Part shown: positions 19,055 to 35,621 of the stretch, piece after piece | How the letters are laid out: every line of letters starts with the position of its first letter | How positions within the stretch are numbered: the stretch's first letter is position 1 | Assembly: GCA_016342355.1 (NCBI GenBank) | Contig: JAEINP010000048.1 | Span: forward strand, 1 to 35,882 | Origin: Desulfatibacillum sp. | Lineage (GTDB): Bacteria; Desulfobacterota; Desulfobacteria; Desulfobacterales; Desulfatibacillaceae | Direction of reading: 5' to 3' | Length of the DNA: 35,882 nucleotides | Position numbers and translations under genes: made by a program | Notes under the pieces: model-generated | What the model saw: the letters and a program-made list of their open reading frames with translations, nothing else | The model's database searches: none | Told to the model about the DNA's origin: nothing

Positions 19055-22000
19055 TCACCCTGGCCGTTTGATCCCCAGTTTTTTCATATGAAAGGCCAGG
19101 GTGGACGGTGGAACCCCCAGGATCCTAGCGGCTCCGGTTGCTCCGGCGACTTTCCACCCGGTCCTTTTCAAGACCCGCAGGATATGGTGGCGTTCATTCT
19201 CCGCCAGGGTGGCGTTATCGTCCACCGTCAGGGGCGTGCAGTCGCCGCTTTGGAGTTCCGGCATGCGGAAATCCCTGCCCGCGCTTAAAATCACGCCTCT
19301 TTCAATCACGTTTTTCAGTTCGCGGACATTGCCTGGCCAGTCGTATTCCACCAGTCTGTCCATTTCCCGGTCGGAAAAACGCATGGCCTGCTTGTTCAAC
19401 TTTGCAGCATGGAGTTTGAGAAAGTGCATGGCTAAAAGGGGAATGTCTTCTCTGCGGTCCCGGAGCGGTGGGACGTAAATGGGGAACACATTGAGCCGAT
19501 AGTACAGGTCCGCCCGAAAACGCCCCTCCCGCACCAGGGATTCCAATTCCCGGTTGGTGGCCGCGATGAGGCGAAAATCAGACGAGAGGGTCTTCATCCC
19601 TCCTACTCTTTCAAACTGGCGCGTCTGAATAACCCGCAACAGGCGAATCTGGATATCCTGGGAAATGTCTCCGATTTCGTCCAGGAACAGTGTTCCCCCG
19701 TCCGCCAGTTCCAGGCGTCCGGCCTTGCGCTGGGTGGCGCCGGTAAACGCGCCCTTCTCATGGCCCAGCAACTCGCTGGCCACCAGTTCCCTGGGCAGGG
19801 CGCTGAGCTGCACCCCGATAAAAGGCTGTTTAGCCCGGCCACTGTGGCGCTGGATGGCCCGAGCCACCAACTCCTTGCCCACCCCGGTTTCCCCGGTGAT
19901 GAGCACCGTGGTTTCTGTATTGGCGACCTGCTCGATCTTGGACAGAACTTCCTTGATAACCGGGCTGTGGCCCACAATTTCGTCGAACTGGAGATAGCTC
20001 AGGTGGGCTTCTTCGTAATATTGTTTTTCCCGGCTCAGCTTGACGTTCCAGCGGCGTATCTGGTCATAGGCCCGGGCATTGTCCAGGGCGATGGCCGCCA
20101 GGGCCGAAAAATAGGACAGCACGTCCAGGTCTTCCTCCCGGAAGGCGCTGGCAAGCAGGCGATTGTCGTGATACAGGACCCCCACCACCTGGTCATGCAG
20201 GCTCAAGGGCACGCAGATTTTAGACTGGATGGCCCCTTCGCTGCCGTAGCCTTCGGTATCCGCGGACTCCACACCCGCAATCAGGCCCTTTCCGGAAGCA
20301 GCCACCGTTTCTATCATTTTCATGGAGGAAACAAAGGAAGGATTGGCCACATGATCGCTGGTCAGGTTGCGGGAGGCTTTCAGACGCAATTCCGTTTTTC
20401 CCGAAGGGCCGGTTTCACTCATGAAAATGGCTCCGCGTTCCGCCCCCGTCACCCGATTGCCTGTTGAAATGATGCGTTGCACCAGCTCGTGGTAGTCGCG
20501 GATTTTGACCAGTTCCTGCCCCAATTCCAGGATTTCCCGAAGCAGTTTCTTGGAATTGGCGTCCCGGCTGACCATGTGGCGCAGGTCGTCCGGCACCAGC
20601 TTTTCATCCATGGAGGCCAAGCCCAGTGTGGCCTGGGCGGTGAGTTTTTCGGCCGATCCCGGGTCTCCGGTTTTCCTCAGGTAACGGGCCGCCTCCAGCC
20701 GGGAACGGATCAGGGACATCTGGTGCCCGGACTCTTTCAGGTAGCGTATGGAGGTCTCAAACGCCTCCAGAATTTTTTCGCCAGGGCCTTGTTCCCTCTC
20801 CATTTTCAGGGCCGCAAACCGCGCCCCGATTCCTTTCATATAAATATTGTTAGAGGCCTGCATGCGTTGGATTTCCACTTCCAGGGAAAGTCCCGGGATT
20901 GGGGGAAGCTCGCCGTCTTCCACGGCCAAGGCTAGGTGAAGCAGATAGGAGTAGGCCAGGACCCTGGTCTGGGCTTCTTCCCGGTATTCCAGGAATTCCT
21001 TCAGGTATTGGGCCGTCTGCTTTTTCTTCCCAAGCAGGAAATAGGTATAGGCCAGGAAAACCTGGAGAATCATCCACACCCAACGGTTGTTGGTCTCCTT
21101 GGCCAGCTTGAGGCTCATTTCCATGTACACCAGGGCCTCGTCCAAGCGCCCCAGCTTCAACATGATTTCGCCAATATTGCCAATGGCATAGGAAGCCAGG
21201 TACAGATCCCCCTTTTCCAGGCAATGGGTGCGGATGGAATCCAGCATGCCAATCCCCTGGGCGTAGTTGCCCACCTGGGCATAGCTGTAGCCCACCGTAA
21301 TGGCGCCCAGCAACGGAAACCGGGACCGGGGATATTGCTCCACGCCCGTAACCGCTCGCTCATAGCTGTCCACCGCCTCGGTAAACCGCCCCTCCCAATA
21401 GAGGAAAAAGGTGCTGAACGCCGTGACAGCGTCTGCCAGTTGGGGATCGTCAATGGTTTTGGCAAGGGCCCAACCCTTTTCAAAATGAGCCAGGGCTTGG
21501 TCGTAATGGGCGCTCAGCCATTCGTTTTTGGCGATATGCATTTCCAGCAAGGCCCTGTCAGCCCCGTTATTCCGCATTTTCGCCCGTTTCATGGCCCGGT
21601 GGAGCAGGGCCAGCACCCAGGTGGTGTCATGGCGGGCCGTGGAAATTTTCGAGTACTTGATGGCTGTTTCCACAAAAAGCTGATCCGCCGTCTCTCCGTT
21701 TTGATGATCCAGGTCCATCAACACCTTGTGATAACATTGAAAAGCCTGCTCGGCCCGAAAAGACCGGCGGTGCGCGTCACCGGCCCGGCACAGCATGCGG
21801 CAGCCGTCAATGTCGTTGGAAATTTCGATCAGATGGTGGGCCAGGCGTTCACATTTTTCATCGTCTTCCGGCAGGTCCCTCATGAGCAACGCAACAATCC
21901 GCTTGTGAAAGGCGGTTTTTGCTTCCGGCGTCAGGCGTCCACTCCATTTTTCCCGCTTTGCAGGAACACGAAAGGCATAGATTCCGGGCCGGGGACTGGT

Positions 22001-22162
22001 GAGGGTTTTTCGCTCCACTTCCCCTTGCAGCTCGGCCAGGACCTGATGGGCCTTGAGGCCGGTCAGTTCCGCCAGCCAGTCCAGGGTGAATTCTCCCTCC
22101 ATGAACGCGGCGGCTTCCTGGATTCTTTGGAGATCATTGGGCGGGGATAGCGGGGTAGTCAT
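19055..22162 (-). CDS. TPR-GAF-sigma54 activator (enhancer-binding protein)
   Basis: A 1035-residue regulator with AGGAG before ATG 22162. The N-terminal third to half (about 100-520) is helical repeat of TPR type, with pairs such as ALAHFEKGWALAK and EALVYMEMSLKLAKE. A GAF domain follows at about 550-700, then an AAA+ sigma-54 interaction domain about 727-960 with Walker A GETGVGKE (757-764), the sigma-54-contacting loop GAFTGA (804-809), Walker B GGTLFLDEIGD and the arginine-finger region. A Fis-type HTH is at about 985-1035. All activator motifs are intact. It is divergent from the acyl-CoA operon that carries a -24/-12 promoter, so that operon is the obvious target. The GAF or TPR part probably senses a CoA intermediate or a protein partner; there is no receiver domain. 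Confidence 0.93.
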   Translation of the reverse strand: MTTPLSPPNDLQRIQEAAAFMEGEFTLDWLAELTGLKAHQVLAELQGEVERKTLTSPRPGIYAFRVPAKREKWSGRLTPEAKTAFHKRIVALLMRDLPEDDEKCERLAHHLIEISNDIDGCRMLCRAGDAHRRSFRAEQAFQCYHKVLMDLDHQNGETADQLFVETAIKYSKISTARHDTTWVLALLHRAMKRAKMRNNGADRALLEMHIAKNEWLSAHYDQALAHFEKGWALAKTIDDPQLADAVTAFSTFFLYWEGRFTEAVDSYERAVTGVEQYPRSRFPLLGAITVGYSYAQVGNYAQGIGMLDSIRTHCLEKGDLYLASYAIGNIGEIMLKLGRLDEALVYMEMSLKLAKETNNRWVWMILQVFLAYTYFLLGKKKQTAQYLKEFLEYREEAQTRVLAYSYLLHLALAVEDGELPPIPGLSLEVEIQRMQASNNIYMKGIGARFAALKMEREQGPGEKILEAFETSIRYLKESGHQMSLIRSRLEAARYLRKTGDPGSAEKLTAQATLGLASMDEKLVPDDLRHMVSRDANSKKLLREILELGQELVKIRDYHELVQRIISTGNRVTGAERGAIFMSETGPSGKTELRLKASRNLTSDHVANPSFVSSMKMIETVAASGKGLIAGVESADTEGYGSEGAIQSKICVPLSLHDQVVGVLYHDNRLLASAFREEDLDVLSYFSALAAIALDNARAYDQIRRWNVKLSREKQYYEEAHLSYLQFDEIVGHSPVIKEVLSKIEQVANTETTVLITGETGVGKELVARAIQRHSGRAKQPFIGVQLSALPRELVASELLGHEKGAFTGATQRKAGRLELADGGTLFLDEIGDISQDIQIRLLRVIQTRQFERVGGMKTLSSDFRLIAATNRELESLVREGRFRADLYYRLNVFPIYVPPLRDRREDIPLLAMHFLKLHAAKLNKQAMRFSDREMDRLVEYDWPGNVRELKNVIERGVILSAGRDFRMPELQSGDCTPLTVDDNATLAENERHHILRVLKRTGWKVAGATGAARILGVPPSTLAFHMKKLGIKRPG

Positions 22163-22550: not shown

Positions 22551-22567
22551 TTGGCGCCCCCCTTGCA
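22551..22567 (+). promoter_or_regulatory. Sigma-54 (-24/-12) promoter
   Basis: TTGGCGCCCCCCTTGCA: GG at 22553-22554 and GC at 22565-22566 separated by exactly ten bases, with the TTGG and TTGCA contexts of the consensus. Transcription should start near 22577, giving a leader of about 70 bases before ATG 22650. A sigma-54 activator is encoded divergently next door. Confidence 0.82.
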
Positions 22568-22649: not shown

Positions 22650-24074
22650 ATGGGTTTGATGACAGCGCAAGAATATCTGGATAGTTTGAACGATGGCCGC
22701 ATCGTATATTATTTAGGCGAAAAAATAGCCAATGTGGCGGACGATCCCAACCTGGGCGTGTGCGCCCGGACCATGGCCCTGGACTATGAAATCGCCGAAA
22801 ACCCCCAATACCAGGATCTGGCTACGGTCTATGACGAGGAACTGGGCGAAAAAATCAGCCGGTATTATCACAAACCGCAAAACGCCGAGGAACTCATCAA
22901 GGCCCATGACCTCATCGTCACCTCCACCAGCATGGGCGACGGCATCATTCCCTTTTCCCATGATATCGGGTCCGACGCCCTCAACGCCTATTCCATCACG
23001 GCCCAGGCCATAGGCAATCCCGAATATATTGAGCGGGTGGAAAACTACCGCCGGTATCTCAAACAAAAGGACTTGGCCACCTGCGCGGCGGTCACTGATG
23101 TGAAGGGAGACCGCATGCTCCGGCCTTCCCATCCGGATCAGGCCCACGCAGATCAATACCTGCGGGTGGTGGAGCGCAACGACCAGGGCATTGTAGTGCG
23201 CGGAGCAAAAATGCACATTACCGGCGCCGCCTACTCCAACGAAATCCTTGTGGTTCCCTGCCGTGCCATGACGGAAAAGGACGTCGACTACGCCGTGGCT
23301 TTTGCCATCCCCGCCAACACCAAAGGCCTGACCCAGATTTGCCGTCCCTTTAAATCCAAGGTCAGTTCCCTGGAATTCCCCAGCAGCCGCCAGCATTTTA
23401 TCCACACCGACTCCCTGATTGTGTTTGACGACGTGCTGGTTCCCTGGGAACGGGTGTTCATGTGCGGCGAATGGCAACACGCAGCCACCATGGTGTACAA
23501 TTTCGCCCTCCTGCACCGGCGCACGGGCGTGGCATACCGGATTCCCATGTCAGAACAACTGGCGGGCGTTGCCATGGCCATGGCCGAGTATCATGGCGTG
23601 TCCCAGGCTCCCCATGTCCGGGAAAAACTCACCGACGTGCTGGTTTACCTGGAAACTCTGCGGTCCCTGTCCCGCTCCGCCTGCCTGGATTTCATCATGC
23701 GCGGCGGTATGGCGGTTCCCAACCCGGTAGTCACCAATATCGCCAAGTACCATTTTGCCAGCCAGTATCACCACATCGTTAAAATTATCCAGGACTTGGC
23801 AGGGGGAGCCCTGGTTACTTCCCCCACATACAAGGATTTCCAGGTACCGGAACTGAAAGGCTACATTGAAAAATACATGGTCGCCAAAAAGGGCGTGAGC
23901 GGCGAACAGCGGATGCGCATGATGGACCTGATCCGCCGGATTATCCCCGCGGAAAACGAAACCATCTGCCTCCATGGCGAGGGATCGCCCATGGCCGAAC
24001 GCATGACCATCTTCATGGAAGGCAAACGCACCCTGGCCCAATGCATGAAAATGGTGGAAGCCCAGGCCGGGTGA
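22650..24074 (+). CDS. HpaB / 4-hydroxybutyryl-CoA dehydratase-fold flavoprotein lacking Fe-S ligands
   Basis: A 474-residue protein from ATG 22650 (AGGAGG seven bases upstream). It aligns end to end with clostridial 4-hydroxybutyryl-CoA dehydratase as I recall it: LMTAQEYLDSL start, VTDVKGDRMLRPS about 148-160, IVVRGAKMHITGA about 181-193, VLVPWERVFMCGE, QDLAGGALVTSP, and LHGEGSPMAERM near the C-terminus. The dehydratase binds FAD and a [4Fe-4S] cluster through three Cys and one His. Here the two Cys before the DALNA motif are replaced (Pro101, Asp105) and the third is Tyr296; only His289 remains. It may therefore be an FAD-only isomerase/dehydratase, a flavin-dependent hydroxylase relative, or something new. 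First gene of the sigma-54 operon. Confidence 0.8.
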   Translation: MGLMTAQEYLDSLNDGRIVYYLGEKIANVADDPNLGVCARTMALDYEIAENPQYQDLATVYDEELGEKISRYYHKPQNAEELIKAHDLIVTSTSMGDGIIPFSHDIGSDALNAYSITAQAIGNPEYIERVENYRRYLKQKDLATCAAVTDVKGDRMLRPSHPDQAHADQYLRVVERNDQGIVVRGAKMHITGAAYSNEILVVPCRAMTEKDVDYAVAFAIPANTKGLTQICRPFKSKVSSLEFPSSRQHFIHTDSLIVFDDVLVPWERVFMCGEWQHAATMVYNFALLHRRTGVAYRIPMSEQLAGVAMAMAEYHGVSQAPHVREKLTDVLVYLETLRSLSRSACLDFIMRGGMAVPNPVVTNIAKYHFASQYHHIVKIIQDLAGGALVTSPTYKDFQVPELKGYIEKYMVAKKGVSGEQRMRMMDLIRRIIPAENETICLHGEGSPMAERMTIFMEGKRTLAQCMKMVEAQAG

Positions 24075-24079: not shown

Positions 24080-24112
24080 CCCGGCAGGACGCTAAGGTGC
24101 CAATTTGCCGGG
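24080..24112. repeat. Intercistronic inverted repeat
   Basis: CCCGGCA (24080-24086) and TGCCGGG (24106-24112) in the 81-bp gap between the first two operon genes. The arms are short; it may form a hairpin in the mRNA. Confidence 0.35.
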
Positions 24113-24155
24113 AAAAATGCGAAAATTTTACCAACCTATCAGCAAGGAGCGCCCC

Positions 24156-25301
24156 ATGAGCAGCGGTTTGTCACGAGAGCAAAACGGATTCCGGGAAAAG
24201 GTCCGGTCATTTGTGGAACGGGAAGTGTCCGACGCCCGGGCCGCGGAAATGGACCGCACGGACGAGTTTCCCCACGACATCATGCATAAAATGGCCCAGT
24301 ACGGCCTGACCGCGGTCAATGTGCCCATTCAATACGGCGGGGAAGGCGGGGGAGACCTGGAAGTCATGATCCTCTGCGAGGAACTGTCCAGACAAAGCCC
24401 GGCCTTGTCCTGGACATTGGGCAACGTGATTCTTTACGGCAACAATATCATTGGGGTCAACGGCAGCGAAACCCAGCGCGAACGCTTTCTGCCGCTCCTG
24501 GCCAAGGGACAGCTCTATTTTTCCTTTGGCCTTACCGAACCCAACGCCGGGTCCGACGCCGCCAATATCGACACCTATGCCGAAAAGCAGGAAAACGGCC
24601 CATGGATAGTCAACGGCGGCAAAACCTTTATCACCGGAGGCACGGTGGCCAATTATGTGGTCACCTTCGCCCGCACCGCACCCTCCCGGTACAAGGGTAT
24701 CAGCGCCTTTTTGGTGGATACCCTGGACAAAGGATTTTCCTATTCCAAAATCCCCAAGCTGGGATTCCGGGGTTCGGACACCGCCACCCTGTACTTTGAC
24801 AAAGTGACGGTCCCGGAAGACATGATTCTGGGAGGCCCGGAGGGCCTTAACCAGGGTTGGGGCCAGATGGTGCGCCTGCTCAACGGAGAACGCCTGTCCC
24901 TGGCGGCATGCTCCCTTGGCATAGCCCAGGCCGCCTTTGACGCAGCTATCAATCATGTGCGGCAACTGCCCCCTCCAGCCATAGCCGGTTCGCGCCAAAG
25001 CGTGGAACACCGTTTGGCCGAAATGGCGGCGCAACTGGAAGCAGCCAGGGCTCTGGCCTATCGCACCGCCTGGATGCATACCAATAAAATGGAATGTGTC
25101 CGGGAAACCTCCATGTCCAAGTTTTTCTGCAGCGAAACCGCCAAACAGATCGCCGCCGGCACCATGGCTGTTATGGGGCCGGACGGATGCGACATGGCCC
25201 TGGCGGCCCAACGCCGGTTGCGGGATGTGCTCATTCTCTCCATAGGCGGAGGCACGTCGCAGATCCAAAAAAATATAGTTGCCAAAACGCTCGGCCTCTA
25301 A
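24156..25301 (+). CDS. Acyl-CoA dehydrogenase, FAD-motif-bearing subunit of a probable heteromer
   Basis: A 381-residue acyl-CoA dehydrogenase (AAGGAG before ATG 24156). It keeps the FAD/substrate strand FGLTEPNAGSDAAN (125-137) and the C-terminal GGGTSQIQKNIVAKTLG. The usual catalytic Glu of the YEGT motif is Gly365; Glu245 in LLNGERLSLA could serve as base, as in isovaleryl-CoA and long-chain dehydrogenases. The normal Arg-x-x-Phe-Gly segment that contacts FAD across the dimer is degenerate (RQLPPPAIAGSRQ, 269-281). It is followed after 37 bp by a second subunit that keeps that segment, so the two probably form one alpha2-beta2 enzyme. EtfAB is the likely acceptor. Confidence 0.88.
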   Translation: MSSGLSREQNGFREKVRSFVEREVSDARAAEMDRTDEFPHDIMHKMAQYGLTAVNVPIQYGGEGGGDLEVMILCEELSRQSPALSWTLGNVILYGNNIIGVNGSETQRERFLPLLAKGQLYFSFGLTEPNAGSDAANIDTYAEKQENGPWIVNGGKTFITGGTVANYVVTFARTAPSRYKGISAFLVDTLDKGFSYSKIPKLGFRGSDTATLYFDKVTVPEDMILGGPEGLNQGWGQMVRLLNGERLSLAACSLGIAQAAFDAAINHVRQLPPPAIAGSRQSVEHRLAEMAAQLEAARALAYRTAWMHTNKMECVRETSMSKFFCSETAKQIAAGTMAVMGPDGCDMALAAQRRLRDVLILSIGGGTSQIQKNIVAKTLGL

Positions 25302-25338
25302 CAGGTTTCCGGCGTGCAAAGGGCAAGGAGAATACAGC

Positions 25339-26463
25339 ATGGATGAAAAGTTGTCCCGAGAACACGAGATGATCCTGGATGCGGTCCGGTACTGGGTAAA
25401 AAAACAATGCCCCCGGACCGAAACCATGGCCTGGGATGAATCAAACCAACTCCCCCCGGAGATCCTCTCCAAATTCAAGGAACTGGACCTTTGGGCCATG
25501 GGAGTGGACGAACAATTCGGCGGAACCGGCCGCGACTGGCTGGGGATCACACTGGTCGTGGAAACCCTGGCCGAAATGGAGCCGGTACTCGCGGGTTTGT
25601 ACGCCACGGATATGTGGGGGGCTGCAACTATTGCAGCGATGGGTACGGAGGAGCAAAAAGCCAGTTTCCTGCCCCAATTGACCGAGGGAAAACTCCCTCT
25701 TGCCAGGGTCAAGCCCAGCCAACCCCTGGAGGAAACCATTCAATTCCGACAAGGACAAAGCGGCTGGATACTGAATGGCGCCTGCAAGCAGGTGGACTTC
25801 GCCCAACAGGCTCAAATGCTTGTGGTGCAAGCAACGGCTGAGAATAATCCGGACCTTACCAGCCAGTTTTTGCTCTCTCCATCCAGTGAGGGCGTGGAAA
25901 TTTCTCCGCTGGAAACCCTGGGGTACCGCAGCGCCGGGTCCTGCTCCATTGAGCTGCATGATGTTTACCTGTCCCTGGAGGCTATACTGGGCCAAGTGGA
26001 GAAGATAAACCCCATGGCAGCCGCTCTAGCGCAAGGAGCTTGGAATCTGCTCATGGCGGCCCAGGCAACGGGCATGGCCCAAGGCGCCATGGCCTATGCC
26101 CTGGAACACGCAAAAGGTCGCGTCCAGTTCAACCAGCCAATAGGCAATTTTCCGGCTATCCGGGAAAAACTGACGGAACTGTCCGTCATGATAAGGGCCT
26201 CCCGGCTCATGGTGCGGACGGCTGCAGCCCTGGCTGACGCAGGACAAAAATATCATGCCGAAGCTGCCCAGGCCCTGCTTATGGCGTCATCCACAGCGGA
26301 AAAGGCCGGGCTTGAAGGCATCCAGATTCTGGGAGGGTATGGCTACTCTCTGGAATATGACGCCCAAAGGTATTTTCGCAACGCCATGCAACTGGTGTGC
26401 AGCGGGGTGGAAAAATCGTCGCTCTATGCAACCATAGGCAAATCAATGGGGTTAACGCCATGA
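25339..26463 (+). CDS. Acyl-CoA dehydrogenase-like second subunit
   Basis: A 374-residue divergent member of the acyl-CoA dehydrogenase family (CAAGGAG eight bases before ATG 25339). The fold is recognisable throughout (FGGTGRDWLGITLVVE about 60-75, LGGYGYSLEYDAQRYFRNA about 331-349). The TEPxAGSD motif is replaced by RVKPSQPLEET (123-133) and the YEGT base by CSGVEKS (354-360). It retains the inter-subunit FAD segment GRVQFNQPIGNFPAIREKL (260-278). It is unlikely to work alone and complements the preceding subunit, as in the mycobacterial ChsE/FadE heterotetramers. Its end overlaps the SDR start by four bases. Confidence 0.82.
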   Translation: MDEKLSREHEMILDAVRYWVKKQCPRTETMAWDESNQLPPEILSKFKELDLWAMGVDEQFGGTGRDWLGITLVVETLAEMEPVLAGLYATDMWGAATIAAMGTEEQKASFLPQLTEGKLPLARVKPSQPLEETIQFRQGQSGWILNGACKQVDFAQQAQMLVVQATAENNPDLTSQFLLSPSSEGVEISPLETLGYRSAGSCSIELHDVYLSLEAILGQVEKINPMAAALAQGAWNLLMAAQATGMAQGAMAYALEHAKGRVQFNQPIGNFPAIREKLTELSVMIRASRLMVRTAAALADAGQKYHAEAAQALLMASSTAEKAGLEGIQILGGYGYSLEYDAQRYFRNAMQLVCSGVEKSSLYATIGKSMGLTP

Positions 26464-27197
26464 ACACCAGTTTCGACTTTAAAGGGCAAACCGCCCTGGT
26501 CACCGGGGCCGCCAGCGGCATAGGCTTGGCCGTTGCCCGGGCTTTCGCACGCAGCGGGGCTTTGGTATGCGCTGTGGACCGTGCGCCCGAAGTGGAGGGC
26601 GTCGCCCGTGAATTGAACGGGATTGGGCAGGTTGCCGACATATCCGACCCCTGTGCCGCCGGCCGTATTATTGCCGAATGCCGGAAACAATGTGGAGTTC
26701 CCCATGCTCTTGTCAATGTAGCCGCCATCAGCAAGCCGTGCATGGTGTCCGGGATGAGCTTCGCTGCATGGCAGGAAACCATTGACGTCAATCTTTCAGC
26801 GGTATTTTCCATGACCAAGGCCGTCCTTCCGGACTTGAGTGCGCGAGGTGGGGGCTCCATCATCAATTTTTCCTCCGTGCTGGCAGGCACTGGCGGCAAG
26901 TCATCAGCCCACTACGCCGCCGCCAAGGGAGGGGTTGAGGCTTTTACACGTTCACTGGCCCTGGAATACGGGCCAAAGAATATTCGCGTGAACGCCGTGG
27001 CTCCGGGTATGGTGGATACCCCCATGCTGGCTCTCATGAACGACGCCCAACGCGCAGCACTAAAAGCCCGCATCCCATTGAAGCGCATCGCAACCCCCGA
27101 GGATATAGCCGGGGTGGTGCTCTTTCTGGCGTCCGATGCCGCAGCCTATATCACCGGCCAAACCATCGGCGTCAACGGAGGGATGTACATGGGCTGA
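26460..27197 (+). CDS. Short-chain dehydrogenase/reductase (FabG-like 3-hydroxyacyl dehydrogenase)
   Basis: A 245-residue classical SDR. Cofactor motif TGAASGIG (15-22), Asp40 at the end of strand 2 (favours NAD), Ser139, Tyr152 and Lys156 in SSAHYAAAKGG, and a C-terminal AYITGQTIGVNGGMYMG typical of the family. ATG 26460 overlaps the preceding stop (ATGA). In this operon it most likely oxidises the 3-hydroxyacyl-CoA made by the MaoC hydratase or another alcohol of the substrate. Precise substrate unknown. Confidence 0.88.
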   Translation: MNTSFDFKGQTALVTGAASGIGLAVARAFARSGALVCAVDRAPEVEGVARELNGIGQVADISDPCAAGRIIAECRKQCGVPHALVNVAAISKPCMVSGMSFAAWQETIDVNLSAVFSMTKAVLPDLSARGGGSIINFSSVLAGTGGKSSAHYAAAKGGVEAFTRSLALEYGPKNIRVNAVAPGMVDTPMLALMNDAQRAALKARIPLKRIATPEDIAGVVLFLASDAAAYITGQTIGVNGGMYMG

Positions 27198-27275
27198 CCT
27201 CCAAGCGAGGGAAGGGTTGTGTATCAAAAGGGTGCGAACCACTTTTCATCAGCAAAGAAACAACCAGGAGGAAAT

Positions 27276-28463
27276 ATGAGCAATATTAAAGGAAAGGCGG
27301 CCATTGTAGGCATAGGAGAAATTCCCACTGGCCGCCATGCCGACAAGGCCGCAATCCATTTTGCGGTGGCTCCGGCCCGCGAGGCCATTGCCGATTCCGG
27401 CATTCACAAGGATGAAATCGACTTTGTCATGCCCACAGGCGCAGTGTTTAACAGCCAGTTCAACAACGATCTGGTGACCTGCCGTCTGGTGGAGGAATTG
27501 GGCCTGAAAAACGTCAAAACCAACGCCCAGGTTTTTGCGGGCGGGGCGTCCGGGTCCTGTCTGGTCAAAACAGCGGCCAGCCTCATTGCCGCAGGCATCG
27601 CCAAAAACGTGCTTTGCGTCCATGCCGACAAACTGGGAACCGGGCTGGCCGGAGGTCAGGCGGGCATTGACTTGTTTTCAACCGCAGGTATCTCCGGCGA
27701 ATGGGAAGTGCCCTATGGGCAGCATTATTCCACCATCGCGGCCTTGTCCATGACCCGCTATATGTACGAAACCGGCTGCACTCCCGAAGAGATGGCTGCG
27801 GTATGCGTGTCCAACCGCAAATGGGCCGAGTTGAACCCCAATGCATTTTTCCGCAAGCCTGTGACCATAGAGGAAATTCTGGCATCCAAAATGCTTTCCT
27901 GGCCCCTTAACGCCAAAATGAGCAACATGCTCTTCGACGGCGGATCAGCCTTTGTCATGACCTCCGCCGAACGTGCCAAGGACCTGCCCAACACCCCGGC
28001 ATACCTCCTGGGCGAAGGGTCCCGGGTTACGCACTTTGTCCACAGCCAGGAAAAGGATATCACCCGGTTCGGCTGGGCCGACGCTGGCCGGGACGCCTTT
28101 GCAGAAGCAGGCTTGACGCCCCGGGACATTGACGTGGCCGAAATCTACGACTCCTACCCCATTTATGAACTCATCACTTTCGAAGAACTGGGCTTTGCGC
28201 CCCGGGGAGAAGGGGGAAAGATGTTCGCAAGCGGCGCTACATGGCCCGGCGGAAAAATGCCCACCACCACCAACGGCGGCATGCTCTCCCAGGGGCACAC
28301 AGGCGCAGGCGGCGGCGTGGCCCTGGTGGTGGAGGCGGCCCGGCAAATCATGCACAAGGCAGGCGACCGACAAGTCCCCAATGCCCGCTTTGCCGTGGAA
28401 ACCGGAACAGGCGGCACCTACATGGATTCCCAGGTAACCATCTTTGGCAACGAAATTCCCTGA
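27276..28463 (+). CDS. Thiolase-fold protein without nucleophilic Cys (Ltp2-like aldolase or BbsB-like)
   Basis: A 395-residue SCP2/lipid-transfer-type thiolase homologue (AGGAGG before ATG 27276). The nucleophile position in the CASG motif is Gly90 (VFAGGASGSC, 87-95), and the C-terminal Cys-Gly motif is VETGTGGTYM. The His motif is GHTGAGGG (340-347) rather than GHPxGATG. The segment EIYDSYPIYELITFEELGF (289-307) and the following GEGG (311-314) match the Ltp2 type, where tyrosines drive retro-aldol cleavage. The next gene is a DUF35 protein, the obligate partner of Ltp2, BbsB and archaeal HMG-CoA synthase/thiolase complexes. Retro-aldol C-C cleavage is the best guess; Claisen cleavage is unlikely without the Cys. 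Confidence 0.85.
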   Translation: MSNIKGKAAIVGIGEIPTGRHADKAAIHFAVAPAREAIADSGIHKDEIDFVMPTGAVFNSQFNNDLVTCRLVEELGLKNVKTNAQVFAGGASGSCLVKTAASLIAAGIAKNVLCVHADKLGTGLAGGQAGIDLFSTAGISGEWEVPYGQHYSTIAALSMTRYMYETGCTPEEMAAVCVSNRKWAELNPNAFFRKPVTIEEILASKMLSWPLNAKMSNMLFDGGSAFVMTSAERAKDLPNTPAYLLGEGSRVTHFVHSQEKDITRFGWADAGRDAFAEAGLTPRDIDVAEIYDSYPIYELITFEELGFAPRGEGGKMFASGATWPGGKMPTTTNGGMLSQGHTGAGGGVALVVEAARQIMHKAGDRQVPNARFAVETGTGGTYMDSQVTIFGNEIP

Positions 28464-28493: not shown

Positions 28494-28904
28494 ATGAACA
28501 ATTCTCCAAGAATCAGGCCCATTGTCAATCCCTGCGCACAGCCCTTTTGGGACGGAACCCGCCAGGAAAAGCTCCTGATACAACATTGCAAGGAATGCCA
28601 GGCAAACATTTTTTATCCCCGGCTTTTCTGCCCTGAGTGCCACTCCGACCAACTGGACTGGGTGGAAAGTGCTGGCAAGGGCACGGTGTATTCCTATACT
28701 GTGGTCTATAACAATTCCCCTTCAGCATTTTTGCAGGACATTCCGTATGTGGTGGCTATCGTCAAACTGAACGAAGGCGTCCAAATGTGCACCAACATCG
28801 TGGGGTGCGAGCCCGAAAAAATCCAGTGCGACATGCCTGTGGAAGTTGTCTTTGAAAAACTGGATGACGAATTTACCCTTCCTAAATTCAAACCTGCACA
28901 ATGA
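28494..28904 (+). CDS. DUF35 Zn-ribbon/OB-fold partner protein
   Basis: A 136-residue protein with a rubredoxin-like Zn ribbon (Cys32, Cys35, Cys46, Cys49: HCKECQ and FCPECHS), followed by an OB-fold domain about 55-130. This is the DUF35 layout of ChsH2 N-terminal domains, BbsA and the archaeal thiolase/HMG-CoA synthase linker, which bind the CoA of a thiolase partner. It lies 30 bp after the thiolase-fold gene, and its last codons overlap or abut the MaoC gene. Good GGAGG before ATG 28494. It probably makes a stable complex with the thiolase-fold protein and perhaps the MaoC hydratase. Confidence 0.9.
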   Translation: MNNSPRIRPIVNPCAQPFWDGTRQEKLLIQHCKECQANIFYPRLFCPECHSDQLDWVESAGKGTVYSYTVVYNNSPSAFLQDIPYVVAIVKLNEGVQMCTNIVGCEPEKIQCDMPVEVVFEKLDDEFTLPKFKPAQ

Positions 28905-28912
28905 GGCAAACC

Positions 28913-29362
28913 ATGGCGCAACAAAAATATGGAAACGACTTTCCTGTTGGAAGCACCTTCACCACTCAGGCCATCACAGTCACAGAGACCCACCTTGTCA
29001 ACTGGGCGGGCCTGACCATGGACTATTACCCCATTCACACGGACAAGGAATTCGCCGCAAAAAGCAGCTTTGGCGAACGTCTGGCCCATGGCCCTCTGAT
29101 TTTCGGCCTGGCCGTAGGCTTGGTGAGCATTTCCAATTATGGCGCTGATGCAGTCATCGCCTGGCTGGGCGCGGACAAAATGCGTATGACCGCTCCTGTT
29201 AAAATCGGGGACACCATCAAGGTTACCATTGAGGTGCTCTCGCACAAGGAAACCAAAGATCCTGCCAAGGGCGTTCAAACCTGGCGTTATACAGTCACGA
29301 ACCAGCGCGATGAAACCGTGATGCTCTTTGACTACACAATGATGTTCCATATGCGGGCCTGA
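28913..29362 (+). CDS. MaoC-like (R)-specific enoyl-CoA hydratase
   Basis: A 149-residue hot-dog hydratase. The hydratase-2 motif is complete: TMDYYPIHTD with Asp37 and His42 (spacing five, as in PhaJ), followed by FGERLAHGPLIFGL. I start at ATG 28913 (GAGG six bases upstream); ATG 28901, which overlaps the DUF35 stop as ATGA, would add four residues. It should add water to the enoyl-CoA made by the dehydrogenases. Adjacent to DUF35 and thiolase-fold genes, it recalls ChsH1-ChsH2-Ltp2, where hydratase and aldolase act as a unit. Confidence 0.9.
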   Translation: MAQQKYGNDFPVGSTFTTQAITVTETHLVNWAGLTMDYYPIHTDKEFAAKSSFGERLAHGPLIFGLAVGLVSISNYGADAVIAWLGADKMRMTAPVKIGDTIKVTIEVLSHKETKDPAKGVQTWRYTVTNQRDETVMLFDYTMMFHMRA

Positions 29363-29386: not shown

Positions 29387-30937
29387 ATGACGCAAACATA
29401 CGATGCCATTATCATAGGGGCCGGTCTTGCCGGATTGTCCGCCGCAGCTATTCTGTCCAGGGAAGAAGGTAAAAAGGTCCTGGTGTTGGAAAAACAGGAT
29501 TACGTGGGGGGAAGGCTGGTTTCCTTTGCCGGAGAAGGCGACGGGCTCATGCTCAATGGCCGATCCCTGGACCTCAGGTCCTTTAAAAAAACCCTGGCCT
29601 CGGTATATGCCTGGGTGGCCCGCAGCGAACCCGACCTGGAAAGCATGTTCGAACAAAAGATGCTGGATGGATTCAGCTTTGAAGCGGGCGGCCACGCCAC
29701 CTTTTGGGGAACCAAGGGGCGGGTCGGCTGCCTGCTGGATTATCTCAATGAAAAAATCCCCCTGCCTGGTAATGAGGGCTTTTCCGTCCTGGACCCTGAC
29801 AACTCCACCCTGTATCCGGTGGAAAAGGGCGGAAGATATGAATGGATGAGCGAAGACTCCAACCGCACCGCCAAAAAACTCCTGCGTGAAATGGCCATGG
29901 CTGACGAAGACACCATGACGCAATGGGATACCATTTCCTTTGGAAAATGGCTGGATGACCGCACGGACGACCGAAAAGTCTACGAATACCTGGCCGCCGT
30001 GGCCTCCATCCACATGGTGATGGGAGAGCCGGACATGATTCCCGCCGGGGATTTTATCCGGTTCATGCGCACAGCCGTGCATATTGGCATGAACCTCATC
30101 AGCGGTTCCACCGGTATTGTTCCCAAACCGGGCTTCGTATACATCGGGGAGCGCTTGGCCGAGAATATAAAAAAAAGCGGCGGCGCCATTATCAACGGGG
30201 TAGGCGTGCAGGAAATCCTGTTTGAAGGCGGCAAGGTTGTTGGTGTGATCGCTGAAGGCCCCGACGGCCCGGTCCGTTATGAGTCCAAACAGGTTGTGTG
30301 CACCGTGCCCATACGCAAGATATTCAACTTCCTGCCCCGAAATCTTTTTCCTCAAAACCTGATAAAATCCGTGGACGAGGAATTTTTCAGCGTGGGCATG
30401 CTCACCGGATACATTGCCGTCAAAAGCAACCTGTTTGCCGATGCCGGAATACAACCCAAATCATGGATTCTTGTGCCCTCCATCATAAAAGCGGAGGAAG
30501 GCTTTATTGGAGATGTGGATATCATCTCCATCATGCCAAGCAACTTCGAGCCCTCTCTGGCCCCGGAAGGCAGTCATGTGATCGCCTATTCCATCGCCCT
30601 GACCGAGCACGAACTCCATGACAAAGACAAGGTCAACCGGGTTATCGATTTGGGAAGGGAAATCTTCCATAAGACCTTCCCAAAAATGAAAGAGGACACG
30701 CTCTGGGAAATCTGGACATGCTCTGACAAAGGCTTTGGCGACTGGCCCCCCCCTGGCGCTAAAAGGCCCGACACCACCCAACCCGGCTTGGAAGGACTAT
30801 TCTTTGCCGGAGACGGGTATGGGGCCAAAACCTGGGGCAGCGGCATGGACGCCGCCATCCACTCGGCCCTCCTCTGCGTGGATGCCATGACCGGCAAGGA
30901 TTACATGGAAAAAGTCCTGCCGGAATATCATCGGTAG
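29387..30937 (+). CDS. FAD-dependent oxidoreductase, phytoene-desaturase/amine-oxidase superfamily
   Basis: A 516-residue flavoprotein (AAAGGAG before ATG 29387). Rossmann motif DAIIIGAGLAGLSAAAIL (6-23) followed by VLVLEKQDYVGGR, the second GG-doublet typical of the amine-oxidase/phytoene-desaturase superfamily. The C-terminal FAD motif is GLEGLFFAGDGYGAKTWGSG. No signal peptide or clear membrane anchor. Such enzymes desaturate, saturate or isomerise C=C bonds. Its place inside an acyl-CoA operon suggests a redox step on a ring or polyene part of the substrate. Substrate unknown. Confidence 0.83.
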   Translation: MTQTYDAIIIGAGLAGLSAAAILSREEGKKVLVLEKQDYVGGRLVSFAGEGDGLMLNGRSLDLRSFKKTLASVYAWVARSEPDLESMFEQKMLDGFSFEAGGHATFWGTKGRVGCLLDYLNEKIPLPGNEGFSVLDPDNSTLYPVEKGGRYEWMSEDSNRTAKKLLREMAMADEDTMTQWDTISFGKWLDDRTDDRKVYEYLAAVASIHMVMGEPDMIPAGDFIRFMRTAVHIGMNLISGSTGIVPKPGFVYIGERLAENIKKSGGAIINGVGVQEILFEGGKVVGVIAEGPDGPVRYESKQVVCTVPIRKIFNFLPRNLFPQNLIKSVDEEFFSVGMLTGYIAVKSNLFADAGIQPKSWILVPSIIKAEEGFIGDVDIISIMPSNFEPSLAPEGSHVIAYSIALTEHELHDKDKVNRVIDLGREIFHKTFPKMKEDTLWEIWTCSDKGFGDWPPPGAKRPDTTQPGLEGLFFAGDGYGAKTWGSGMDAAIHSALLCVDAMTGKDYMEKVLPEYHR

Positions 30938-31048: not shown

Positions 31049-32737
31049 ATGCTGCTTGTTCCGGAAGATAAAATCCGCAAATATACCGATGGGGGATATT
31101 GGGGTACGGAAACCATTACAGACCTGATCGCAGCCCGGGCCAAGGCAAAGCCGGATGACGAGGCCCTGGTGGACCCGGAAAACAAGGAAGCCTTGGTTCG
31201 GCTGACGCCCCAAAGGTATACTTATGCCGCCATGCAGACCGCCATTGATCGCCTGGCCTGCCGCCTGGTGTCCCTGGGCATGGAAACCGATGGAGTCATC
31301 CTGGTTCAGTTGCCGAACATTGCCGAACTGGTCATTTCGTTGTTCGCCGCCGCGCGGGCCGGTGTGGTGGTGAGTCCGGTTCCTGTGCAGTGGCGCAGCC
31401 ATGAAATCCGCCATGCCGTGGCCATGACCGGGGCCAGGGTCATGATTACCTCCCATTCCTTTGCAGGTTTTAACCATGTGGCCATGGTCCGCCAGGCCCT
31501 GGACGAAGAATACCGGCTCGACCATATCATCACGGTGGGTTCAGGCCCATGCGACGGCGCGCTCAACATGTCGGAAATCCTGGCGGATGCTGACACTCCA
31601 GACACCGAATCTCTTGTCAGCCGAAAGATGTCGGCCAACGACGTTTTCACCCTGTGCTGGACTTCAGGCACCGAAGCAGCCTCCAAAGCCGTACCCCGGA
31701 GTCACAACCAATGGCTGGCGATCTCGCGCATGGTGGTCGAGTCGTTTTTGCCGGACGAAGAATGCACCTATCTGTCCTTGTTTCCCGCCATCAATATGGC
31801 AGGGCTTGGCGCAGTGCTGGTTCCCTGGTGCATCACCGGCGGAAAAATGGTCCTTCACCATCCCTTTGACCTGGGCGTCTTTTTAAAACAACTGGTTGTG
31901 GAGGGGGTCTATTACACCTTGGCGCCTCCGGCACTTCTGGACAACCTGGCCAAATCCCCGGATTGGGGGAAAATGAACAAAGGGAACCTCAAGGTGATTG
32001 GCTCCGGGTCCGCGCCCCTTTCAGAATGGATGGTCTCCACCTTTCAGAACGAATTTGGCATTGGCATTGTCAATTTTTTTGCTTCCAACGAAGGGGTGGC
32101 CTTGTACAGCAGCCCAAAGGATTTCTCCGATCCGGCAACTCGCGCCAGTTATTTTCCACGATTCGGCACGCCGAACCTCACATGGCATTCCCAGGCGGCC
32201 AGGGGTATCCGGTCCCAGCTGGTGGATCCAGCCACTGGCATGGAAATCACGGAAAACGATGTGGTTGGCGAATTATGCTTTGACGGACCCACGGTTTTCT
32301 GCGGATATTACAAGGCCCCGGAATTGACCGCCAAGGCCTTTGACAAGGAGGGCCTTTTTAGGTCGGGAGATCTCTTTTCCATCACCGGCGACAATCAGGA
32401 CAAGTACCTTTTCCATGGCAGGCTTAAGGATCTCATCATCCGGGGCGGCATGAATATCAGCCCCGAAGAGATTGAAACCTTGGTAGTGGGTCACCCCAAG
32501 GTGGCCGAAGTCGCTGCCGTGGGCTATCCGGACGAACGCCTTGGGGAGCGGATTTGCATTGTGGTGGTCCCCGTCCCGGGCCAGTCAATAGCCCTTGAGG
32601 AAATCAACCAATATCTCAAGGCCAGGGATATCGCCAAATACAAATATCCGGAAGTTCTCAAGGTGGTGGACAGCCTGCCCAGAAATCCCCTGGGCAAACT
32701 GCTCAAGCGGGAATTGCGCCAAACTGTGGCTCCGTGA
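31049..32737 (+). CDS. Acyl-CoA synthetase, ANL superfamily, with divergent phosphate loop
   Basis: A 562-residue AMP-forming ligase (AGGAGGAGG before ATG 31049). The phosphate loop reads TSGTEAASKAVPRSH (205-219): the lysine is kept but the glycines and proline of the usual TSGTTGxPKG are changed. The PRSH ending is like aryl-acid-activating members. The adenine motif is FFASNEG rather than YGxTE, with the Glu kept. Hinge GRLKDLIIRGGMNISPEEIE and catalytic lysine in NPLGKLLKREL are normal. It probably activates the operon's substrate acid to its CoA thioester. Specificity is unknown and likely not plain long-chain fatty acids. Confidence 0.87.
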   Translation: MLLVPEDKIRKYTDGGYWGTETITDLIAARAKAKPDDEALVDPENKEALVRLTPQRYTYAAMQTAIDRLACRLVSLGMETDGVILVQLPNIAELVISLFAAARAGVVVSPVPVQWRSHEIRHAVAMTGARVMITSHSFAGFNHVAMVRQALDEEYRLDHIITVGSGPCDGALNMSEILADADTPDTESLVSRKMSANDVFTLCWTSGTEAASKAVPRSHNQWLAISRMVVESFLPDEECTYLSLFPAINMAGLGAVLVPWCITGGKMVLHHPFDLGVFLKQLVVEGVYYTLAPPALLDNLAKSPDWGKMNKGNLKVIGSGSAPLSEWMVSTFQNEFGIGIVNFFASNEGVALYSSPKDFSDPATRASYFPRFGTPNLTWHSQAARGIRSQLVDPATGMEITENDVVGELCFDGPTVFCGYYKAPELTAKAFDKEGLFRSGDLFSITGDNQDKYLFHGRLKDLIIRGGMNISPEEIETLVVGHPKVAEVAAVGYPDERLGERICIVVVPVPGQSIALEEINQYLKARDIAKYKYPEVLKVVDSLPRNPLGKLLKRELRQTVAP

Positions 32738-32793: not shown

Positions 32794-33687
32794 ATGAAAA
32801 TTTCCACACCCCTCACGGCCATGCTGGGCATTGACCTTCCCATTATCGGCGCGCCCATGTTCCTGGTTTCCTACGAGGAACTGACCATCGCCGTGTCCGA
32901 GGCCGGAGGCCTGGGCATGTTCGCCCTGCCCAATTACCGGACCGTACCCGATCTTGAGGCGGCCCTGGAGCATATCCGGCGGCGCACAGACCGCCCCATC
33001 GGGGTGAATATTCATCTGTCGGGCCGATTCGAGTGGCAGGCGCAGCTTGAGGTTTGCCTGGACTACGGGGTGACCTTTTTTATTTCCTCCCTGGGAGATC
33101 CGCGCCACATTCTGGAGCCGGTGCATGCCCGGGGCGGATTCGTATTCGCCGATGTGATTTCCCGCAGACACGCACTCAGCGCCAAGGAGAAAGGCGTGGA
33201 CGGCCTAGTGGCGGTCGCCGCCGGCGCCGGAGGCCATGCAGGGCAAACCCCGACCATGGTCCTGGTCCCCTACCTGAAAGCGCTCACCGGGTTGCCGGTG
33301 CTTGCAGCGGGTGGAGTGTCCACCGGTCAACAACTGGCGGCGGCGTTGACTCTGGGCGCATGCGGCGCCGTGGTGGGCACGCGTCTGGTGGCGTCCCGGG
33401 AAGCAGGCGCGTCGGAGGCATACAAACAGGCTGTGGTCGATGCGGACCCGGACGACATTGTGTACACAGACCAAATCACCGGCAACCCGGCGAACTGGCT
33501 GGCCCAAAGCATAGATCGCTTTGACGGACAGCCGGACCTGAGCTCCAAAAAATGGCTGGATCTTTGGAGCGCGGGCCGCAGTGTGGCCCAGGCGGACGCA
33601 ATTCTTCCCGCAGGGAGAATTGTTTCGGAAATGGCGGAGGAATGCGCCGCAACCCTTTTGCAGATGCCAAAACTTATTGAGCCTTAA
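32794..33687 (+). CDS. FMN-dependent nitronate-monooxygenase/enoyl-reductase-II family protein
   Basis: A 297-residue TIM-barrel flavoprotein (AAGGAAGG before ATG 32794). It begins LPIIGAPMFLVS and carries AAGAGGHAGQTPT (about 147-159) with the conserved His, then VLAAGGVSTGQQLAAAL and GACGAVVGTRLVAS, the FMN phosphate-binding region. The family includes nitronate monooxygenase, FabK and IpdC, the last a flavoenzyme of mycobacterial cholesterol ring C/D catabolism. In an apparent anaerobe with acyl-CoA genes, a reductase or dehydrogenase role on a cyclic or unsaturated CoA ester is more likely than nitronate oxidation. Confidence 0.83.
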   Translation: MKISTPLTAMLGIDLPIIGAPMFLVSYEELTIAVSEAGGLGMFALPNYRTVPDLEAALEHIRRRTDRPIGVNIHLSGRFEWQAQLEVCLDYGVTFFISSLGDPRHILEPVHARGGFVFADVISRRHALSAKEKGVDGLVAVAAGAGGHAGQTPTMVLVPYLKALTGLPVLAAGGVSTGQQLAAALTLGACGAVVGTRLVASREAGASEAYKQAVVDADPDDIVYTDQITGNPANWLAQSIDRFDGQPDLSSKKWLDLWSAGRSVAQADAILPAGRIVSEMAEECAATLLQMPKLIEP

Positions 33688-33752: not shown

Positions 33753-33806
33753 TGTTTACGATGGTTTTATCATTAGACAATGCACACTTGAATGAAAGGA
33801 ACCCAA

Positions 33807-35621
33807 ATGGGTCAACAAATCGCAGACCGCAGGGACATCGAGTTTGTCCTTTACGAACAATTTGATGCTGAAGGATTGGCAAGTGACGAGCGCTATCAAG
33901 GATTAAACAGAAAAGCCTTTGACCTGATTCTTACCGAAGCGCGGACCTTCGCCATTAAGGAACTCCTGCCCATCATGGCCGAAGGAGACCGCCAGGGCGT
34001 TCGCCTGGAGGAAGACGGCGTCAAGGTCCCCGATTGCTTTCGGGAACCCTTTGCACGCTTTGTTGAAAACGAGTGGATGTCGCTTACCGAAAGCCAGGAA
34101 ATGGGAGGCCAGGGCCTGCCCCATCTTGTGGCCACCGCCGCCACAGAATACCTTGTGGGTCCCAATTTCGCCTTTGCAGGATATCCGGGCATGGGTCACG
34201 GAACCGGTAAGATGATTGAACTATACGGAACCGAGGCCCAAAAGGCCCTGTTTGTGAAAAATCTCTACACCTGCCGCTGGGCGGGCACCATGATGCTTAC
34301 CGAGCCGGAAGCCGGTTCGGACGTGGGCGCTCTTACCACCACGGCGGTTCCCAATGAAGACGGGTCCTATTCCATTACCGGAAATAAAATCTTCATCACC
34401 GTGGGAGACCATGACCTGACGGAGAACATCATCCACGCTGTTTTGGCGCGCATTGAAGGCGCCCCGGCAGGCACCAAGGGTATATCTCTCTTTATTGTGC
34501 CCAAAATCCGGGTCAACGAGGACGGGAGCCTGGGAATTCCCAACGATGTCGTCTGCACCGGCGTGGAAGAAAAAATGGGCATTCACGGAAGCGCCACTTG
34601 CAGCATGGCCTTGGGCTCCAAAGGCCAATGCCAGGGCTTTTTGCTGGGCGAGCCCAACAAGGGCATGCGCGTTATGTTCCATATGATGAACGAAGCCCGC
34701 CTGGCGGTTTCCATGCAATCTCTGGGCATCGCCTCCGCCGCCTACCTCCATGCCGCCAACTACGCCAAGGAACGGGTTCAGGGCAGGGATCTCGCCGACA
34801 TGCTCAACAAGGATGCCGCCTCGGTCCCCATCATCCGCCACCCGGATGTCCGCAGAATGCTGACCTGGATGAAGGCCTATGTGGACGGCATGCGCAGCTT
34901 TGTCTATTTTATCGCGGATTGCATTGAAAAAGAGGAAAACGGGAACGACCCGACAGAAAGCAAGCGTTGCAAGGGTCTGGTGGACCTTCTGACGCCCGTC
35001 ATCAAAACCTATAACGCCAAGTACGGGTTCGAGATTTGCGTTCAGGCCATGCAGACATACGGGGGATACGGCTACATCCGCGAATTCCCCGTGGAGCAAC
35101 TCATGCGAGACGCAAAAATAACCTCCCTCTACGAAGGCACCGACGGGGTCCAGGCCATGGACCTTTTGGCCCGGAAAATCGGCATGAACCAGGGCGCCGT
35201 GTTCCAATCCTTTATGCAGGAAATCAACAATGTCATAGATCGAGCCCGCAAATGCGGGGATTTGTCGCCCCTGGCCGATGTCATGGCCCAAAGCCTGGAA
35301 AACCTTTCGGCCCTGGCCATGAAACTGGGCGCCACCGCCATGTCCGCGGATTTTAAAACAGCCTTTGCCCATTCCGTGCCGTTCCTGGAAATCTTCGGGG
35401 ATATTGTCATGGCATGGATGCTCCTGTGGAGAGCCTCCGTTGCCTCGGAAAAACTGGGTGGAAAGGTTAAAAGCAAAGACGTGGCCTTTTACAATGGGCA
35501 GATCAAAACCGCCCAATTTTTCTTTGGAACAGTCCTGCCCATAACCCAGGGACGCATGAAATCCGTGGAAAACATGTGCCCGGCTGCCCTGGAAATGGAC
35601 GAAGCCGCCTTTGGCGGCTGA
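33807..35621 (+). CDS. Acyl-CoA dehydrogenase, ~600-residue (DmdC/AcdA-like) type
   Basis: A 604-residue enzyme from ATG 33807 (AAAGGA seven bases upstream; ATG 33792 lacks a site). It has the extra N- and C-terminal helical extensions of the long acyl-CoA dehydrogenases. The motifs are intact: MLTEPEAGSDVGA, GGYGYIREFPVEQLMRDAK and SLYEGTDGVQAMD with the catalytic Glu. It should be an active homodimeric dehydrogenase, unlike the paired subunits earlier in the operon, so the pathway likely has at least two desaturation steps. Last gene of the operon; terminator 30 bp downstream. Confidence 0.92.
   Translation: MGQQIADRRDIEFVLYEQFDAEGLASDERYQGLNRKAFDLILTEARTFAIKELLPIMAEGDRQGVRLEEDGVKVPDCFREPFARFVENEWMSLTESQEMGGQGLPHLVATAATEYLVGPNFAFAGYPGMGHGTGKMIELYGTEAQKALFVKNLYTCRWAGTMMLTEPEAGSDVGALTTTAVPNEDGSYSITGNKIFITVGDHDLTENIIHAVLARIEGAPAGTKGISLFIVPKIRVNEDGSLGIPNDVVCTGVEEKMGIHGSATCSMALGSKGQCQGFLLGEPNKGMRVMFHMMNEARLAVSMQSLGIASAAYLHAANYAKERVQGRDLADMLNKDAASVPIIRHPDVRRMLTWMKAYVDGMRSFVYFIADCIEKEENGNDPTESKRCKGLVDLLTPVIKTYNAKYGFEICVQAMQTYGGYGYIREFPVEQLMRDAKITSLYEGTDGVQAMDLLARKIGMNQGAVFQSFMQEINNVIDRARKCGDLSPLADVMAQSLENLSALAMKLGATAMSADFKTAFAHSVPFLEIFGDIVMAWMLLWRASVASEKLGGKVKSKDVAFYNGQIKTAQFFFGTVLPITQGRMKSVENMCPAALEMDEAAFGG

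Follow-up and report, generated by a model that had tools for sequence, protein, structure and literature searches.

A 4-hydroxybutyryl-CoA dehydratase relative lacking cluster cysteines leads a run of acyl-CoA genes in Desulfatibacillum

Introduction

4-Hydroxybutyryl-CoA dehydratase (4HBD) is the classic enzyme in which FAD and an iron-sulfur cluster together serve a dehydration without net redox change. From its structure paper, we take C99, C103, H292 and C299 to be the ligands of the [4Fe-4S] cluster. In the mechanism of Zhang et al. (2015), Y296 is said to be deprotonated by E455 and then to reduce FAD as a one-electron donor; E257 and T190 reportedly give a proton. 5-Hydroxyvaleryl-CoA dehydratase of clostridia, an enzyme of the acyl-CoA dehydrogenase family, is an anaerobic case in which a hydroxyacyl-CoA is dehydrated with FAD alone.

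The flavin-semiquinone proposal of Zhang et al. for 4HBD is summarised in PMC13101534, and Archaeoglobus fulgidus is credited with three 4HBD homologues in PMC3949148. Elimination by flavin is described for BbuA, an FAD-dependent, acyl-CoA-dehydrogenase-like protein that releases trimethylamine from gamma-butyrobetainyl-CoA. As set out in PMC8364193, BbuA suffices in vitro to eliminate from C4 of a CoA ester without net redox change, and works with oxidised flavin. Its authors compare BbuA with 4HBD and put the two at about 10% identity (PMC8364193). The two-component flavin monooxygenases HpaB and TftD share fold and Pfam domains with the protein described here, and also have no iron-sulfur cluster. 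PMC10537072 presents Arg100-Tyr104-His142 (TtHpaB numbers) as a key site that is conserved in HpaB.

We analysed a 35,882-nucleotide stretch of Desulfatibacillum sp. DNA (the window). One of its genes had been predicted to encode a 4HBD-fold protein in which three of the four cluster ligands are replaced.

Results

The open frame at 22650-24074 (+) translates to 474 residues. AGGAGG precedes the ATG at 22650. A TTG at 22551, chosen mechanically as the ORF start, is 99 bases further upstream and coincides with a sigma54-like site. It is an unlikely start and was set aside in favour of the ATG. The protein matches Pfam domains HpaB_N (280.9 bits) and HpaB (175.3 bits), both well above cut-off. 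Scores for the NCBIfam models HpaB-1 (212.5 bits, cut-off 480.2) and HpaB-2 (120.2 bits, cut-off 885.2) were below. Acyl-CoA_dh_M was the sole Pfam acyl-CoA dehydrogenase domain matched, at 24.5 bits against a cut-off of 33.3.

Among solved structures, the best sequence match was 4HBD (1u8v, E 2.6e-69, query residues 3-460). The N. maritimus 4HBD (6vjr, E 1.6e-64, residues 5-455) was second and T. thermophilus HpaB (2yyg, E 5.4e-51, residues 5-421) third. In bits, 4HBD scored 237 and HpaB 177. An AlphaFold2 model, built from 49 homologues, had a mean pLDDT of 93, with weaker stretches near Glu444 (78 for residues 431-440, 73 for 441-450). VIA-align of this model gave Z 42.5 for 6vjr (rmsd 2.4, 425 aligned) and Z 42.4 for 1u8v (rmsd 2.3, 429 aligned). 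The HpaB-type entries listed ranged from Z 36.7 to 39.6, and acyl-CoA dehydrogenases were at about 20. The protein is nearer to 4HBD than to the aerobic hydroxylases in sequence and, modestly (Z 42.4 versus 39.6), in the model. The expectation that it follows the dehydratase over its whole length was borne out for nearly the full length in sequence, and the structural alignment proposed as a check placed 4HBD entries best and HpaB next. The structural alignment spans residues 2-434 only, and the model is weaker around Glu444. Hence, the column of Glu444 was assigned by sequence, within an ungapped HGxGSP stretch. This C-terminal stretch is a further tie to 4HBD.

In pairwise and multiple alignments alike, C99, C103, H292 and C299 of 4HBD align with P101, D105, H289 and Y296, as originally predicted. 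To place these letters in a family, homologues were collected from the window's own genome (3 matches) and from overlapping genome samples. These comprised 59 relatives (22 with a match at E 0.001, homologues of all kinds), 389 genomes of the same order (31 at E 1e-90) and 395 of the same phylum (37 at 1e-86). One protein per locus was aligned for 79 loci, together with four references. The ligand columns read P-D-H-Y in 42 rows and C-C-H-C in 18 (two references included); the other 23 fall into smaller sets. The 42 of 79 loci with P-D-H-Y include the window and some near-copies, and the loci are best matches, not a random sample. P-D-H-Y persists down to 40% identity. Its recurrence takes the pattern of absent ligands beyond chance and, with the frame open, rules out a frame or sequencing error. 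The same genome encodes a paralogue, L002, with all four ligand letters. Hence, the organism has a normal homologue of the cluster type as well. Locus L004 encodes an 86% homologue of the window protein.

A 94-row tree, extended by 10 plasmid-borne homologues, two more Rhodococcus members and a second L057 copy, was built without the ligand columns and the C-terminal motif columns. It separates HpaB-type proteins (9 rows, support 98), Fe-S-type proteins (25 rows, support 99) and the present clade (60 rows, SH-aLRT 96). A 54-row tree agrees (HpaB-type 100/100, Fe-S-type 99/95, present clade 90/93 with 30 rows). For both trees the program warned of long branches, HpaB rows among them. Fragments L050 and L104 were omitted from both trees; the smaller tree also omits L015, L017, L108, TftD, six more rows of the Fe-S type and 30 of the clade, the latter for the most part near relatives. 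All four ligand letters are present in 21 of the 25 Fe-S-type rows, the others reading CCHF (1), TCFC (1) and C-HC (2). Two homologues on the Fe-S side, L003 and L020, appear to be another variant of the family: C-x2-C stands where C-x3-C is usual, there is one additional Cys, and the Y296 and E455 columns hold Lys and Trp, respectively. In the present clade, the ligand cysteines are absent from 54 of 60 rows. The odd ligands are therefore real, but they mark a conserved family (60 rows) and not the single member first noticed.

Several columns unite this clade with 4HBD. Lys153 and Gly154, in the KGDR loop of 4HBD, are present in 60/60 clade rows but each in 1/9 HpaB-type rows. For His188 and Arg293, the counts are 60/60 and 0/9. 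By its near full-length match and its Lys-Gly, His188 and Arg293 columns, the protein belongs to the 4HBD-type acyl-CoA branch. With 4HBD (the aminobutyricum enzyme and 6vjr) it shares fold, length, KGDR loop and acyl-CoA context, together with the His188, Arg293, His292, Glu/Asp257 and Thr/Ser190 columns. It differs in having no Cys at three cluster positions and no counterparts of Tyr296 and Glu455. Instead, Tyr stands in place of Cys299 and Glu in place of Ala460.

The same contrast is seen between whole clades (Table 1). In Fe-S-type rows, Tyr occupies the Y296 column in 22/25 and Glu the E455 column in 22/25, whereas neither residue occurs there in any of the 60 clade rows; at the A460 column, Fe-S-type rows have Ala (23) or Gly (2). 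Column 105 varies within the clade (Asp 40, Glu 11, Cys 6, Phe 2, Ala 1). His442 is fixed in all 60 rows, with a counterpart in 22/25 Fe-S-type rows too. D105, H289, Y296, H442 and E444 form a new conserved residue set, shared by the 40 tree rows that read PDHY. The T190 column is Thr or Ser, and the E257 column Glu or Asp, in 60/60 clade rows (Thr191 and Asp254 here, the latter a conservative change). HpaB-type rows also have Thr and Asp (9/9), so this match to the 4HBD relay is weak evidence. Given an invariant His289 and Glu460, no Tyr296 or Glu455, and Tyr at Cys299 in 54/60 rows, the active site looks rebuilt. If the mechanism reported for 4HBD is right, the clade would keep its proton side without its Tyr-Glu pair, a change that the original prediction had not noted. 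The clade Tyr sits three residues, and the Glu five residues, beyond the Tyr296 and Glu455 columns of 4HBD. Tyr296 and Glu444 may come together in the pocket left free by the absent cluster.

Cys38 and Cys272 had been named as residues that, if placed at the cluster, would overturn the ligand assignment. Neither occupies a ligand column, and Cys is found at these positions in 11/60 and 36/60 clade rows (7/25 Fe-S-type rows for Cys272). The most frequent cysteine of the window protein, C231, occurs in 40/60 clade rows and also in 7/9 HpaB-type rows. Among the columns of the 60-row clade alignment, no other group of conserved cysteines that might hold a cluster was seen. Other cysteines as cluster ligands were rejected, as no column fits.

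The six remaining clade rows (L045, L097, L099, L100, L101 and L102) are nested inside the clade and keep three of the four ligands. They have Cys103, His292 and Cys299, with Val for Cys99, and also carry Asp at the 455 column and Glu at the 460 column. The K in their aligned letters VCHK is an alignment shift, since Cys follows at His+6 as in 6vjr. A three-ligand or open-site cluster is possible in these proteins. Within the clade, they adjoin a PFHY pair (support 99, 94-row tree). With three of the six rows used, topology tests rejected both a grouping of all Cys-free rows without the three-ligand rows (p 0.020) and a union of the three-ligand rows with Fe-S-type rows (p 0.005). Hence, ligands were regained in this subclade, or cysteines were lost more than once, and not every member need be cluster-free. 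The phylogeny proposed as a check set the clade apart from HpaB-type proteins, but did not mark it as uniformly devoid of ligand cysteines. That three of four ligands are absent also stood; to call them replaced assumes an ancestor with a cluster. The tree places the clade beside, not inside, the Fe-S-type enzymes. With HpaB as outgroup, a lineage that never had a cluster fits at least as well as one that lost it.

Nine named relatives in GTDB contigs come from Desulfobacterales, Deltaproteobacteria and Syntrophaceae MAGs, with one contig binned as Lokiarchaeota. The protein on a contig binned as Candidatus Lokiarchaeota CR_4 (L058) has the Syntrophaceae MAG protein L057 as its closest tree neighbour (support 100), which could be either gene transfer or mis-binning. 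Two homologues are labelled only '4-hydroxyphenylacetate 3-hydroxylase N-terminal domain-containing protein'. Three Rhodococcus plasmids carry clade members. Rhodococcus is aerobic; hence, an O2-dependent reaction is possible for the family. The original prediction had placed the gene in an anaerobic acyl-CoA operon. Acyl-CoA genes do surround it, but these plasmids show that the family is not confined to anaerobes.

The positions of the HpaB triad are occupied by His104, Ala110 and Ala146. Across the clade these columns hold Arg in 3, Tyr in 0 and His in 0 of 60 rows, compared with 9, 6 and 7 of 9 HpaB-type rows. The window's genome (5.26 Mb, 142 contigs, listed as 100% complete) gave no match to the PF01613 family of HpaC-type flavin reductases, for which 13 of 14 control genomes were positive. 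On both counts, the protein does not look like a standard HpaB. In the same genome, dsrA was detected above cut-off (598 bits), COX1 was not found, and no BamA family protein (TIGR03200, aromatic benzoyl-CoA pathway) scored above cut-off, the best reaching 87.8 against 464.45 bits. The host probably lives by sulfate reduction.

The HpaB-like gene leads a same-strand run that extends to 35621, with gaps of -67 to 111 bases between mechanically chosen starts (Table 1). The catalytic-Glu positions given for acyl-CoA dehydrogenases 1 and 2, and the meaning of NGERL, are those we take to be usual. The second of these proteins may be a partner subunit, the inactive half of a heteromer. The sigma54-like pattern was fitted after the site had been seen by eye. 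It matched once in the window, against a mean of 0.11 in shuffled sequences, 8 of 100 of which had at least one match. Allowing up to 3 mismatches, sites were found in 3 of 8 related loci (L060, L061 and L063), where roughly one is expected from a background of 0.08 per kb and strand. Hence, conservation of the site is weak. From the site and the divergent activator gene, the acyl-CoA gene run is probably under sigma54 control.

Across 45 neighbourhoods, the FAD oxidoreductase family to which the 29387-30937 protein belongs was present at all 10 loci of the window's subclade and at none of the 35 others. Of those 10 loci, some of them short, 5 have the genes for the thiolase-fold protein and its OB-fold partner, and 4 have the MaoC gene. 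The 29387-30937 protein has a monoamine-oxidase/CrtI fold (model pLDDT 77, best Foldseek match 3ka7); no NCBIfam match came near a cut-off. Genes for a branched-chain-type ABC transporter adjoin the HpaB-like gene in L121 and, by clustering, also in L120. ETF genes lie in the window at 7947-9685 (-). At 3866-6469 (-), ParA- and ParB-like genes stand beside a replication-relaxation-domain gene, possibly a plasmid or integrated element at the contig end.

Table 1. Coordinates of genes, codons and the promoter-like site in the window; row counts refer to the 94-row tree.
Position	Strand	Feature	Basis
19055..22162	-	divergent sigma54-dependent activator (TPR, GAF, AAA+, Fis-type HTH)	
22551..22567	+	sigma54-like promoter TTGGCGCCCCCCTTGCA, 82 bases before the start codon	pattern match
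22650..24074	+	predicted cluster-free 4HBD-type flavoprotein, HpaB_N and HpaB Pfam domains	sequence, model
22950..22964	+	codons P101 to D105; P101 and D105 in the columns of 4HBD Cys99 and Cys103	alignment
23514..23516	+	His289, column of ligand His292; 60/60 clade rows	alignment
23526..23528	+	Gly293, column of 4HBD Tyr296; clade Ala 43, Gly 17 of 60	alignment
23535..23537	+	Tyr296, column of ligand Cys299; Tyr in 54/60 clade rows	alignment
23964..23966	+	Ile439, column of 4HBD Glu455; Glu in 0/60 clade rows	alignment
23979..23981	+	Glu444, column of 4HBD Ala460; Glu in 60/60 clade and 0/25 Fe-S-type rows	sequence alignment
24105..25301	+	acyl-CoA dehydrogenase 1; keeps the isovaleryl-type Glu (..NGERL..)	domain match
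25279..26463	+	acyl-CoA dehydrogenase-like 2; no Glu at either usual catalytic position	domain match
26397..27197	+	short-chain dehydrogenase/reductase	domain match
27219..28463	+	thiolase-fold protein, lipid-transfer/Ltp type (thiolase or retro-aldolase)	
28494..28904	+	zf-ChsH2/OB-fold protein; probable partner of the thiolase-fold protein	
28901..29362	+	MaoC-type hydratase	
29387..30937	+	FAD oxidoreductase, amine-oxidase/CrtI fold	
31049..32737	+	AMP-forming acyl-CoA ligase	
32794..33687	+	FMN-type nitronate monooxygenase/FabK-like protein	
33792..35621	+	long-form acyl-CoA dehydrogenase with extra C-terminal domain	

Discussion

The fold, the missing cluster cysteines and the conserved new residue set are evident from sequence. 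We infer that FAD alone is bound, as the original prediction had it, that O2 is not needed, and that the substrate is a CoA thioester from the operon's ligase. Taken together, the protein would be a cluster-free, O2-independent FAD enzyme acting on acyl-CoA, a sister of the [4Fe-4S] 4HBDs and likeliest a redox-neutral isomerase or dehydratase. We judge this reading to be evenly poised between right and wrong. BbuA is a works-like precedent from another sequence family.

Speculatively, the CoA ester would lie against the flavin, with Glu444, Asp105 or both taking an alpha- or gamma-proton. In the room taken up by the cluster of 4HBD, Tyr296 and His289 could supply an acid and hydrogen bonds. 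The flavin might accept, and then give back, an electron or hydride. Overall, a cyclic or branched acyl-CoA would undergo an elimination or a double-bond shift with no net redox change. The acyl-CoA dehydrogenases of the operon, its MaoC hydratase and its Ltp/OB-fold aldolase or thiolase could then process the product further. Sets of Ltp, OB-fold and MaoC proteins resemble those that remove side chains from ring carbons. Hence, a cyclic or branched acid as substrate is a reasonable guess only. In a bolder version, which we think improbable, flavin and a tyrosine of the protein would suffice for 4HBD-like radical or ketyl chemistry on CoA esters, the Tyr-Glu pair having moved to Y296/E444 in the emptied pocket. 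Such a metal-free dehydratase or isomerase, perhaps oxygen-tolerant, would serve sulfate reducers and aerobes.

The gene context suits an acyl-CoA dehydrogenase almost equally well. In that case, the CoA ester would undergo alpha,beta or vinylogous oxidation by FAD, and electrons would pass to ETF or to the operon's amine-oxidase-type flavoprotein. The superfamily is the same, as the sub-threshold Acyl-CoA_dh_M match and the Z of about 20 illustrate. ETF genes are at hand in the window, and the FAD oxidoreductase family accompanies all 10 subclade loci. However, the run already has acyl-CoA dehydrogenases, two of them with what we take to be a recognisable catalytic Glu, and 4HBDs, the closest characterised relatives, are redox-neutral overall. 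We regard a dehydrogenase as doubtful, though as the strongest of the alternatives. A mononuclear metal might instead replace the cluster at D105, H289, Y296 and E444, or at H289, H442 and E444, and, as a Lewis acid, help a hydroxyl group to leave. Invariant H289, H442 and E444 (60/60 each), Asp or Glu at 105 (51/60), Tyr at 296 (54/60) and the H-x-E spacing at 442-444 are compatible with such a site. As His442 has its counterpart in 22/25 Fe-S-type rows, it is not specific to the clade, and we consider a metal site quite improbable.

Pfam domains and the Rhodococcus plasmid homologues could also be read as signs of an HpaB-like two-component enzyme that hydroxylates aromatic compounds with O2 and is found by chance among acyl-CoA genes. 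This is very improbable. Unlike HpaB and TftD, the protein has no catalytic triad (Tyr104 and His142 are absent from 60/60 clade rows, and Arg is at the Arg100 column in 3/60), lies in an acyl-CoA gene context and falls in a separate clade. Its genome has no PF01613 reductase, and has dsrA with no COX1 detected; the HpaB-1 score is 212.5 against 480.2. A dead or structural relic of cluster loss, suggested by the absence of the characterised ligands and of Tyr296 and Glu455 counterparts, is scarcely credible given an open frame, a different residue set conserved in 60 rows with invariant Glu444 and His289, and an FAD oxidoreductase gene retained at 10/10 subclade loci.

In open-access titles and the starts of abstracts, which leave subscription literature mostly outside, we found no description of cluster-free 4HBD relatives or of an anaerobic HpaB-type family. 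The residues of the family point to chemistry on CoA-bound acids by flavin alone. As nature provides it with the 4HBD fold but no cluster cysteines, it is a ready-made control for the role of the cluster. If the chemistry is alike, an oxygen-robust catalyst might result.
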